Assembly: GCF_000745775.1 (NCBI RefSeq)
Contig: NZ_JQJY01000009.1
Coordinates: 186,001-250,000 of the forward strand
DNA from: Flavobacterium sp. ASV13
GTDB taxonomy: Bacteria > Bacteroidota > Bacteroidia > Flavobacteriales > Flavobacteriaceae
Length of the DNA stretch: 64,000 nucleotides
Direction: 5' to 3'
Shown: piece after piece, positions 42,502-56,143 of the stretch
Layout: every line of letters begins with the position of its first letter
Position numbering within the stretch: the first letter of the stretch is position 1
Program-made: the position numbers and the translations under genes
Notes under the pieces: generated by a model
What the model saw: only the letters and a program-made list of their open reading frames with translations
Told to the model about the DNA's origin: nothing
Database searches by the model: none

Positions 42502-42555
42502 TGCAGTAAAATTGATTTTTATCAAATATAAAAAGATAAATATTGCTATAAACAA

Positions 42556-42587
42556 AAAACACCACTTGTAATAAGTGGTGTTTTTCT
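42556..42587 (-). terminator. tRNA-fMet (copy 1) terminator
   Basis: A perfect stem AACACCACTT/AAGTGGTGTT lies just downstream of the tRNA on the minus strand. The same hairpin follows tRNA copy 2. Confidence 0.85.
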
Positions 42588-42590
42588 TAG

Positions 42591-42663
42591 TAGCGGGAAC
42601 AGGACTCGAACCTGTGACCTTCGGGTTATGAGCCCGACGAGCTGCCTACTGCTCTATCCCGCG
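42591..42663 (-). tRNA. tRNA-fMet (CAT), copy 1
   Basis: A 73-nt cloverleaf on the minus strand with anticodon CAT and T-loop GGTTCGAGTCC. It has the initiator marks: three consecutive G-C pairs at the base of the anticodon stem (GGG/CCC) and an unpaired C1-T72 end. CCA is not encoded. An identical copy lies at 56071-56143. Confidence 0.95.
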
Positions 42664-53979: not shown

Positions 53980-54426
53980 ATGAAACTAGCATTAGCTCAA
54001 TATACATCGGCGGAAATAAAAAAAGAAACTAGATTTTTAATTGATTTTTCAGATGAAATCGAAAAATATTTTATTAAAAAAAAATATGGGAATGATTTAA
54101 TGGAAATTGTAATTGGAATTATATGTGTAAGTTCAATATTTGAACAATTTTTTAAGCCAAAGTCGCCGAAATATACAAAAGAAAAAAAACATATAAAAAG
54201 CGAGGGATTCGAATATGAAGTTGAAAAATGCTTAGAATATAGTATAAAATTAGATTTTGAAACATTTAAAAATTCTTCAGAAATTAAAGCAAAAAAATAT
54301 TTGGCACAAGAAATTTTAAAATCATTGGAAATTATAGACACGATGAAATCTAAATTTAAAGACTTCGATTTGGTAAATTTTAAAAAAGATTTAGAAAATT
54401 ATTTTAAAGAAAAAGAATTGATATAA
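53980..54426 (+). CDS. Probable immunity-type protein, copy 1
   Basis: 148 aa, lysine- and glutamate-rich, mostly helical, with no signal peptide. It begins MKLALAQYTSAEIKKETRF, and its second half reads IKLDFETFKNSSEIKAKKYL. A paralogue of the same length follows at 54933-55385. I do not recognise a named family with certainty. The size, charge, tandem duplication, low-GC sequence and the conserved frame tail directly upstream are typical of immunity genes paired with polymorphic toxins. No toxin gene is present. The immunity role is inferred. Confidence 0.65.
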   Translation: MKLALAQYTSAEIKKETRFLIDFSDEIEKYFIKKKYGNDLMEIVIGIICVSSIFEQFFKPKSPKYTKEKKHIKSEGFEYEVEKCLEYSIKLDFETFKNSSEIKAKKYLAQEILKSLEIIDTMKSKFKDFDLVNFKKDLENYFKEKELI

Positions 54427-54932: not shown

Positions 54933-55385
54933 ATGAAAATAGCATTGGCTCAATATACTTCAGCAGATATCAGAAAAGAGACAAATTTTATAAGCGATTT
55001 TTCAAATGATTTGAAAGAATGGTCTTCGGAAAAGAAATATGGTAAAGACTTAATCGAGCTTGTCATAGGCGTTATTTGCGTTAGCCAAAGTTTCGAGGCT
55101 TTTTTTAAACCTGGAAAGCCAAAATATATAAAAGAAAAAAAAGGCGTAAAAAGTACTTATACAAAGCAAGAGTATGATATTGAAAAATGTTTAACATATG
55201 ATATAAAATTAGATTTTGAAACATTTAAAAAATTTTCAGAAATCGAAGCTAAAAAGCATTTATCCTTAGAAATTTTGAAATCCTTAGATATCATTGTAAC
55301 TATGAAGACTAAAATTAAGGATTTTGATTTTTTAGCTTTTAGAAAAGATTTAGAAGACTATTTTAAAGAAAATGGATTGATATGA
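54933..55385 (+). CDS. Probable immunity-type protein, copy 2
   Basis: 150 aa, about 60% identical to the upstream paralogue by eye. It begins MKIALAQYTSADIRKETNF and shares ELVIGVICVS, EKCLTYDIKLDFETFKKFSE and the tail DYFKENGLI. Differences cluster in residues 20-45 and 60-75, the kind of region where immunity proteins diverge to fit different toxins. No toxin is present nearby. A role in protecting against effectors made by related strains is inferred only. Confidence 0.65.
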   Translation: MKIALAQYTSADIRKETNFISDFSNDLKEWSSEKKYGKDLIELVIGVICVSQSFEAFFKPGKPKYIKEKKGVKSTYTKQEYDIEKCLTYDIKLDFETFKKFSEIEAKKHLSLEILKSLDIIVTMKTKIKDFDFLAFRKDLEDYFKENGLI

Positions 55386-55702
55386 AAAACTGCATTCTGT
55401 TAAACGTTTCGGAACAAATCGTGTTGAAAGAAAAAATTTGACACTCAGAACTCATTTAAAAAGACTAAACCGCAGAACAATCTGCTTCAGTAAAAGTTGA
55501 GTAGTTTTTATTGCTGTTTTAAAAATTTACTTTTGGATATGAGTTTAATTGGATTTGAGTCTTTTGTTTGACTTAATGGGACTCGAACCAATTTTCCCTG
55601 AAAATACTAGAGGTTTTTATTTTTAATAAATGGAACAAGATTTTTCGAACCATAAAAAAAGCTTGAGAAATCTAGATTTTTCAGGCTTTTAGTTTTTACT
55701 AG
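55386..55702. other. Gap with degenerate tRNA-like fragment and hairpin
   Basis: Near 55578-55592 the sequence GGGACTCGAACCA resembles a tRNA T-arm on the minus strand but lacks the rest of a tRNA. A hairpin with AAAGCTTGAG/TTTTTCAGGCTTT arms lies at 55655-55692, downstream of the tRNA remnant. No ORF was seen. Confidence 0.45.
55655..55692 (-). terminator. Imperfect hairpin downstream of the tRNA remnant
   Basis: Arms around AAAGCTTGAGAAATC and ATTTTTCAGGCTTT pair with mismatches. On the minus strand a T-run follows. Confidence 0.5.
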
Positions 55703-55765
55703 TAGCGGGAACAGGACTCGAACCTGTGTCCGCCGCGGCGGATATAAGCCCGAAGAGCTAAATGT
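55703..55765 (-). pseudogene. tRNA-fMet 3' remnant
   Basis: The first 26 nt (55703-55728) are identical to the 3' end of tRNA-fMet (acceptor strand and T-arm). The next 35 nt are degenerate: a GGGCTTATA anticodon-like piece can be recognised, but the stem is replaced by CCGCCGCGGCGG. The D-arm and 5' half are missing. The stop codon of the GIY-YIG gene lies inside this remnant. Confidence 0.8.
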
Positions 55766-56012
55766 TAAGAATTAGATTTTTAATAAACTCTCTTCCAATT
55801 CCTGTTTTTAAATATTTTTCTCTTTTCATTGCTTCAGATTTTGAATTGAAAAATTCGACATGAATCACTTTCCAAGGTCTAAATTTTAAAGTATACCCTT
55901 TTGTTTCAAGAAGATTGTGAGATTTGAATCTCTCAATTAGATTAGAAGTATAACCTGTGTAATTTTTATTGAATTTTTCAGAATAAAGAATGTAAACTAC
56001 AAATTCTTCCAT
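55758..56012 (-). CDS. GIY-YIG endonuclease domain protein
   Basis: About 84 aa from the ATG at 56012; a longer frame would begin inside the tRNA terminator. It opens MEEFVVYILYSEKFNKNYTGYTSNL, with VYIL and YTGYTS standing for the GIY and YIG strands. The conserved arginine follows (LIERFKSHN), and the EAMKREKYLKTGIGREF segment holds the catalytic glutamate. This is the UPF0213-like single-domain type, which often carries a misleading UvrC label. Its place directly after tRNA-fMet, with its stop codon in a tRNA fragment, suggests it arrived by insertion at the tRNA gene. Whether it is an active nuclease is unknown. Confidence 0.85.
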   Translation of the reverse strand: MEEFVVYILYSEKFNKNYTGYTSNLIERFKSHNLLETKGYTLKFRPWKVIHVEFFNSKSEAMKREKYLKTGIGREFIKNLILNI

Positions 56013-56035
56013 AATACAAAATGTTATAAACAAAA

Positions 56036-56065
56036 AAAACACCACTTGTTGAAGTGGTGTTTTTG
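56036..56065 (-). terminator. tRNA-fMet (copy 2) terminator
   Basis: The stem AACACCACTT/AAGTGGTGTT is the same hairpin as after copy 1. It lies between the tRNA and the GIY-YIG gene. Confidence 0.85.
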
Positions 56066-56070
56066 CTTAG

Positions 56071-56143
56071 TAGCGGGAACAGGACTCGAACCTGTGACCT
56101 TCGGGTTATGAGCCCGACGAGCTGCCTACTGCTCTATCCCGCG
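56071..56143 (-). tRNA. tRNA-fMet (CAT), copy 2
   Basis: Identical in sequence to the copy at 42591-42663, including the initiator features (GGG/CCC anticodon stem, mismatched C1-T72). Even the few bases upstream and the downstream terminator are shared, so the duplicated unit is larger than the tRNA. Confidence 0.95.

Follow-up and report, generated by a model that had tools for sequence, protein, structure and literature searches.

A candidate homing-endonuclease-like minimal element that inserts into bacterial tRNA genes and restores them

Transfer RNA genes are favourite landing sites of mobile DNA, which is usually explained by integrases. Integrative elements at tRNA 3′ ends, such as ICEs and tycheposons, target and restore the tRNA gene and leave a partial tRNA at their far end. 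Homing group I introns in tRNA genes represent selfish insertions that have been made harmless to the host. The known system closest to the element described here is phage SegB, a free-standing GIY-YIG homing endonuclease of T-even phages that cuts inside tRNA genes, is found near phage tRNAs and is required for tandem amplification (PMC13096335). The same text gives the motif RAWTSGAAC for 23 of 83 sites (PMC13096335), which we read as the complement of the T-loop sequence GTTCSAWTY. Among the entries listed by our searches of open-licence PMC papers, none described a link between chromosomal GIY-YIG genes and the tRNA genes of bacteria.

The locus studied here lies in a stretch of 64,000 nucleotides from Flavobacterium sp. 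ASV13, hereafter the window (genome G000, locus L003). It contains an insert at a tRNA-fMet gene (Table 1), which in our best reading is probably a free-standing, homing-endonuclease-like minimal element that would cut a tRNA gene and restore it on insertion. Such an element combines part of its target tRNA with a terminator, the gene of a single-domain GIY-YIG nuclease and, as its end, a tRNA-like sequence that contains a hairpin; at the two fMet sites where we determined its size, it measures 364–368 bp. A preliminary description of the window had drawn attention to the two direct repeats, to the single GIY-YIG gene and terminator between them and to the stop codon falling within the distal tRNA copy. 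Sequence comparison bears out the repeats, which are identical and offset by 368 bp, the gene matches the PF01541 profile, a terminator hairpin is present, and the TAG stop codon coincides with the edge of the distal copy.

Table 1. Features of the tRNA-fMet locus and of the second tRNA-fMet gene, in positions of the window.
Feature	Position	Strand	Remarks
Intact tRNA-fMet, tRNA-Met(CAT)	56070..56143	-	3′ part probably element-borne
28-bp direct repeat, proximal copy	56069..56096	-	insert length 368 bp
Putative element-borne terminator hairpin (AAAACACCACTT..AAGTGGTGTTTT)	56035..56064	-	
GIY-YIG nuclease gene, 84 aa, single-domain	55758..56012	-	ATG 56012, TAG stop 55758-55760
tRNA-like piece (distal partial copy)	55702..55759	-	corresponds to tRNA positions 21-74
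Palindrome TCCGCCGCGGCGGA	55729..55742	-	replaces 3′ side of anticodon stem and variable loop
28-bp direct repeat, distal copy	55701..55728	-	
Host's original tRNA terminator, displaced by the insertion	55657..55690	-	homologous to the empty-site terminator of G060 and F. plurextorum
Second tRNA-fMet, tRNA-Met(CAT)	42590..42663	-	element-type terminator (about 42551-42584) and leader, no GIY-YIG gene

The tRNA-like piece of the window needs a 4-nt insertion to align with the tRNA, and its alignment score exceeds those of 200 out of 200 shuffles; Rfam does not call it a tRNA. The only Rfam match above the gathering score at the locus is the tRNA itself, which is contiguous, and we therefore rejected a group I intron. 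The 5′ part of the piece is element-borne, and its 3′ part, comprising the T-arm and the acceptor 3′ strand, comes from the host's original tRNA. The distal copy had been called degenerate, which is half right: its 3′ part is the unchanged original end of the host gene, and the element-borne 5′ hairpin part is conserved. The palindrome TCCGCCGCGGCGGA stays with the element in other species. Beyond the displaced terminator, a T-loop-like fragment, GGTTCGAGTCCCATTAAGTC (minus strand, 55570-55596), is shared with the empty site of F. plurextorum and is perhaps a relic of an older insertion. The element is adjoined by a tandem pair of similar-looking proteins of 148–150 aa (53980-54426 and 54933-55385), of which the first has a weak match to Imm44, below the cut-off.

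Comparison with related genomes shows an insertion. The cleanest case is a 364-bp insertion that distinguishes an occupied site (L233) from two empty ones (L155, L157). The left arm, comprising the flank and the tRNA, is 98.5% identical to the first and 96.7% to the second, and the right arm of 283 bp, which begins in the T-arm, is 96.5% and 97.5% identical, respectively; the junctions lie within the shared T-arm and 3′ end. The window aligns with the empty site of F. plurextorum (L211) over a right arm of 197 columns with 81% identity, and three further pairs (L215/L161, L213/L152, L230/L211) agree, with right arms of 135–165 columns at 84–88%. The insertion is clean, and present in some orthologous alleles and absent from others, which is the pattern by which a free-standing homing endonuclease is recognized. 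From these comparisons it follows that the tRNA now in use in the window precedes the terminator of the element, beyond which the host's own tRNA end and terminator are found at the opposite end of the insert. The fMet sequence itself is uninformative on an element-borne origin of the 3′ part of the intact tRNA, being the same in empty sites. We compared 38 occupied and 28 empty fMet sites, some of which are one and the same site entered under more than one locus identifier.

The preliminary description had thus been right to propose an insertion at a tRNA gene with the tRNA restored, and the empty sites for which it suggested looking exist. It had also held that the same arrangement in every relative would speak for an old, fixed one. 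A GIY-YIG gene stands behind the tRNA-fMet beside era in 3 of the 30 era loci fetched in the genus, and the empty sites rule out an arrangement inherited with the genome. In the related genome G060, where the site beside era is empty, the terminator after the tRNA resembles the window's displaced terminator past the partial copy. Further, F. resistens (L208) has the same unit of 375 bp, 98.1% identical, in flanks that show no long match in the window and with no intact tRNA before it. The second tRNA-fMet of the window had been suggested as an unoccupied site. It does have the same type of terminator, but a plain empty site is doubtful, as terminator and leader are of the element type. In G057 (L154), terminator and leader match the window up to position 56013, one base before the GIY-YIG start, and there is again no GIY-YIG gene. 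These two sites may have lost the gene, or may have been the source of the element's terminator.

The elements occur in two mirror layouts, both of which have empty sites. In layout A the order is tRNA, GIY-YIG gene and 3′ piece, in layout B 5′ piece, GIY-YIG gene and tRNA. A tRNA-like piece across the gene was detected at p≤0.01 in 60 of 70 loci of layout A and 12 of 17 of layout B, leaving 10 and 5 without one; these numbers replace initial ones of 61/72 and 13/18, from which the misassigned L059 and L062 (A) and L085 (B) were removed, and L119, at an edge, was not scored. Pieces of layout A retain the T-arm (identity 0.93) and the acceptor 3′ strand (0.87), with the acceptor 5′ strand mostly absent (0.19), whereas those of layout B keep the acceptor 5′ strand (0.88) and the D-arm (0.91) and have lost the T-arm (0.43), as computed from 61 and 13 pieces with one misassigned row each (L062, L085). 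For layout B, three empty sites (L296-L298) share the gene context of an element at tRNA-Arg(TCG) (L251), and the left match ends after the D-loop in two of them and in the upstream region in the third; for the Pro(GGG) array of layout B, the genus in which an empty site was sought comprised one genome. In sequence terms, both layouts fit an insertion into a tRNA of which one side was rebuilt by the element.

The mirror layouts also bear on the origin of the unit, which the preliminary description had seen as reduced from a larger element integrating at the tRNA 3′ end. The 28-bp repeat at this end does resemble an attL/attR pair. Yet that the locus is a remnant of an integrase-borne island or prophage seems hardly credible to us: the insert of 364–368 bp holds the GIY-YIG gene only and has no room for an integrase, similarly small units with GIY-YIG genes next to tRNAs recur across the phylum, no relative was confirmed in viral contigs by a search reaching close relatives only, and those in phages and plasmids are weak. 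Integration at a tRNA 3′ end fits layout A, but not layout B, where the break lies in the 5′ half of the tRNA; nor does a reduced element of this kind predict a layout at the 5′ side. For the small size of the insert and the existence of layout B, we rejected an integrase-type island as the main reading.

A tRNA-Ala site in the genome of the window (L004) offers a further look at the rebuilt part. The intact tRNA has the T-stem ATCGG/CCGAT, whereas its tRNA-like piece is of the ACCGG/CCGGT type and interrupted by a hairpin; in G006, the corresponding site has an empty tRNA-Ala with the T-stem ACCGG/CCGGT. Most simply, the tRNA-Ala now used would owe its 3′ part to the element, and the former end of the host gene would survive as the piece on the other side of the GIY-YIG gene. 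Since the anticodon stem of the intact tRNA matches G006, the change from one type to the other falls at about positions 43 to 46. This account concerns one site and takes G006 as the ancestral state, and orthology of the site rests on the downstream side of G006, as the upstream side was masked. Elsewhere, G008 is occupied at this site and no tRNA was found in G015, so G006 provides the sole usable empty tRNA. ARAGORN reports a tRNA-Phe(AAA) at L004:1873-1948, which has a tRNA-Ala-like body with a hairpin in place of the anticodon arm; for this reason it is probably another tRNA-like piece rather than a functional tRNA.

Three of the five small GIY-YIG genes in the genome of the window lie beside tRNAs. 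In surveys of sampled genomes of the genus and the family, counting among the matches listed and after removal of L009 and L039 as duplicates of L003 and L004, a tRNA on the same strand adjoins 88 of 144 GIY-YIG clusters: 73 have one within 300 bp upstream and 18 directly downstream, with 3 clusters included in both numbers. In total, 80 upstream and 25 downstream tRNAs lie within 300 bp of these clusters, all on the same strand; opposite-strand tRNAs within this distance number zero among the 144. Among loci collected afterwards, L248 has, in addition to its same-strand tRNA, one on the opposite strand that lies 229 nt downstream. With 50 tRNAs in 5.28 Mb, we estimate the chance of a same-strand tRNA within 300 bp upstream at 0.14% per gene, or about 0.2 expected in 144. 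The association, a question already raised in the preliminary description, is thus far more frequent than chance would have it. One clade, made up of 25 GIY-YIG rows with proteins of about 100 aa, has no tRNA linkage. Outside its loci, 88 of 118 clusters are linked and 30 have no adjacent intact tRNA; some of the latter lie at contig or locus edges, have decayed genes or are arrays that look cut off by another element. In front of two such arrays of the Pro type (L090, L078), all that is left of tRNA-Pro is its final bases, which follow an unrelated sequence that is similar in both; another element, integrated in the tRNA 3′ end, seems to have separated these arrays from their tRNA. Tandem arrays at regular spacing comprise up to five GIY-YIG genes beside a tRNA (L083), and six in L090, where only the tRNA 3′ end is left before the array.

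In a sample across the phylum, 179 of 296 genomes have a GIY-YIG match. Of 29 loci newly retrieved from it, 25 adjoin a same-strand tRNA, and in three of the remaining four the gene starts less than 100 bases from the edge of the locus. Eight loci have titles outside Bacteroidota (WOR-1, an unassigned bacterium, Saccharibacteria, Melioribacter, Nitrospirota, two Gracilibacteria and KSB1). As all eight are metagenome bins by title, single assignments may be wrong. Seven of them have a same-strand tRNA within 60 nt, and six of these seven a tRNA-like piece at p 0.005, two of the pieces being only 15 nt long.

The window protein is clearly a GIY-YIG protein (PF01541, 4.1e-17, 62.7 bits at a cut-off of 22.6). 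Six residues, Y7, Y18, G20, R28, H32 and E65, are invariant in 12 diverse relatives, and we take them to be the catalytic residues of GIY-YIG nucleases. With 84 aa, the protein comprises the nuclease domain only; an extra DNA-binding domain is not visible. One frame of another locus (L022:1504-1851) continues through the tRNA-like piece, giving a tail that is encoded by tRNA-like DNA. We rejected an extra domain in this long frame, as such frames may simply run on through the piece; read-through of this type may explain odd C-termini in annotated relatives.

We compared the tRNA isotypes of linked genes with the protein tree. On a tree of 85 linked rows, the amino acid of the tRNA changes 16 times, whereas 1000 shuffles never gave fewer than 50 changes; on a wider tree of 125 rows it changes 29 times, and the lowest of 300 shuffles is 82. 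The trees include only rows whose domain reaches 60 aa, and the shortness of the protein leaves many of their forks weak. Inheritance at one site adds to this clustering. As judged from these trees, the lineages would keep mostly to one tRNA isotype. This tracking, indirect as it is, makes recognition of the tRNA gene by the nuclease, which the preliminary description had ventured, the best reading. The fMet lineage is under purifying selection, with a median dN/dS of 0.107 over 268 pairs with dS between 0.1 and 1.5, taken from 27 of 28 hand-chosen sequences (L225, which has no tRNA-like piece, was omitted). Between the window's genome and G053, the synonymous-codon difference is 0.042 for the GIY-YIG gene and 0.129 for era (Fisher p 0.034, from approximate counts), which lends weak support to a recent movement between the two. 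Both numbers are available for 10 pairs: in 8 of them the difference is smaller in the GIY-YIG gene than in era, and in the other 2, which both involve G042, it is larger; five pairs with G045 gave no number.

These observations also bear on a passive duplication, by which the gene would travel with tRNA segments through ordinary recombination of tRNA repeats, with no initiating role of the nuclease. The gene is indeed flanked by tRNA repeats, and the even spacing of the arrays is what unequal crossing over would give. We nevertheless consider this reading unlikely, as isotype tracking, purifying selection and placement on the same strand only suggest a role for the protein. Another possibility is a gene useful to the host, whose nuclease acts on tRNA, phages or incoming DNA and which lies near tRNAs for its expression. 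The low dN/dS, the same-strand layout and the position of the layout B gene just before the tRNA would agree with this, as would weak PADLOC matches of the Val-lineage protein and a hairpin with compensatory changes (see below), which could be a structured RNA. With its patchy presence, relatives with empty sites, a 98% identical unit elsewhere in another species and a window protein that finds no match in PADLOC, a host function seems quite improbable. The window protein has no match in PHROGs either. In a search of viral contigs, which reaches close relatives only, no relative of the Val or fMet protein was confirmed; among phage records, six have relatives, all of Listeria, and among plasmid records five, all with less than 60% identity. 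Within the reach of these searches, we rejected carriage by phages or plasmids.

Most of the tRNA-like pieces contain a hairpin. Counting perfect stems of at least 6 bp with loops of at most 6, and including the misassigned L062 (A) and L085 (B), 68 of 74 pieces have a strong hairpin, compared to 32 of 74 for their own intact tRNAs and 38 of 370 for shuffles. It takes the place of the anticodon arm in Val, Ala, Pro and Arg(TCT) pieces, of part of the anticodon arm and the variable loop in fMet pieces, and lies in the variable loop, T-loop or D-arm in other lineages. The form of the fMet lineage, TCCGCC-NN-GGCGGA, is found in 25 of 27 pieces compared, with variable bases before it. Compensatory changes occur at two pairs of the Pro hairpin (7 sequences, comprising all layout A Pro pieces with p≤0.01) and at two pairs of the Val hairpin, in 9 cells of 17 sequences, where 99.1% of 115 cells are paired. 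The Val analysis began with 10 of the 17 layout A pieces and was extended to all 17; one (L031) breaks a pair. Its covariation score is higher than in all 500 shuffles, the number of pairs changed on both sides was matched in 88 of 500, and the changes are few, with two of five shuffle measures not exceptional. The genome of the window also contains 47 dispersed 18-bp palindromes of the form TCCCGAW-4 bases-WTCGGGA (e.g. L268-L282, and the flanks of L005), against zero in a reversed control. Palindromes of the TCCCGAW and other types occur in most tRNA-like pieces, and in view of the similar ones dispersed in the genome, the hairpins may derive from a dispersed palindrome family.

The hairpin raises the further possibility that the nuclease recognizes this fold as the end of an element, and that the unit moves via single-stranded DNA and not by double-strand-break homing. 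The frequency of the hairpin (68/74) and its lineage-dependent position in the tRNA would be in line with such a transposition. We regard it as very unlikely, since the hairpin is found at one end only and since the insert contains tRNA sequence that completes the target, which is more simply explained by homing between tRNA arms.

Our preferred reading, a homing-endonuclease-like element, would proceed as follows. Insertion and restoration of the tRNA are seen in the comparison of occupied with empty sites; for cleavage by the encoded nuclease and repair from a donor we reason by analogy with SegB. The nuclease of each lineage would cut one kind of tRNA gene. Repair would then copy the element from the donor, with the tRNA sequences at both ends serving as homology arms; the arm left in the tRNA-like piece can be as short as about 28–31 bp. 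As the comparisons show, the element's own tRNA piece completes the recipient tRNA, so that the host keeps an intact tRNA, and the recipient's original tRNA end and terminator are displaced to the far side. In layout A the element would supply the 3′ part of the tRNA, in layout B the 5′ part, with the element placed before the tRNA. The hairpin probably prevents cleavage of the spare piece or its use as a tRNA. With the target restored each time, further insertions could stack into the arrays that are observed; their even spacing fits either a rebuilt and re-hit target or unequal crossing over.

In classical intron or intein homing endonucleases, the insertion destroys the recognition site; here this is not the case, as the tRNA is rebuilt. 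The commonest fMet sequence is the same in occupied (32/35) and empty (51/56) genes, and thus no protection of the rebuilt tRNA from recutting is visible. Immunity through recoding of the tRNA was looked for at fMet and not seen. The recognition site may extend outside the tRNA. Besides this lack of visible protection, several observations count against our reading: the small protein with its nuclease domain only, the shortness of the homology arm, the clusters without an adjacent intact tRNA, the loci without a tRNA-like piece, the opposite-strand tRNA at L248 and the small number of changes behind the hairpin covariation.

On a broader proposal, our judgment is evenly divided: that these are a new class of very small autonomous mobile elements in several bacterial phyla, which carry part of the essential tRNA gene they attack and so spare the host, with a hairpin end that is functional both as homology arm and as protected site, and a rebuilt target that allows tandem stacking. 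The sole gene here is a nuclease of about 84 aa, and its target is an essential gene that the element completes. If true, this would be a further route to harmlessness for a homing-type gene, besides splicing and intergenic insertion. It would offer a testable function for many small GIY-YIG (UPF0213-like) proteins of Bacteroidota and provide nucleases that nature has already sorted by tRNA isotype. Annotated genomes contain tRNA-like pseudogenes and proteins with unusual C-termini, and these, too, may be explained in this way.

Compared to ICEs and tycheposons, the element has no integrase, is only a few hundred bp long, carries a hairpin in its partial tRNA and also occurs in a layout at the tRNA 5′ side. 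It differs from group I introns in leaving the tRNA contiguous, so that no splicing is needed; some relatives match the NCBIfam model of group I intron endonucleases, below the cut-off. By sequence, the closest solved relatives are the UPF0213 or small GIY-YIG proteins BH0048 (1ZG2, E 3.3e-14) and EF2693 (1YWL, E 5.3e-11). The available parts of the 2006 analysis of the superfamily (PMC1564403) report no association of these with tRNA genes, and the clade of about 100 aa in our own survey is not tRNA-linked. With SegB the element shares a GIY-YIG gene that adjoins tRNA genes, presumably cuts within them and is tied to tandem amplification. SegB, however, is a phage gene, for which no favoured isotype is reported (PMC13096335), whereas the element is chromosomal, with lineages that appear to keep mostly to one isotype; it further differs in encoding 84 aa and in bringing along, besides a terminator, part of its target tRNA and a tRNA-like end that contains a hairpin. 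What is new relative to known homing endonucleases is a homing-endonuclease-like element that carries part of its own target.
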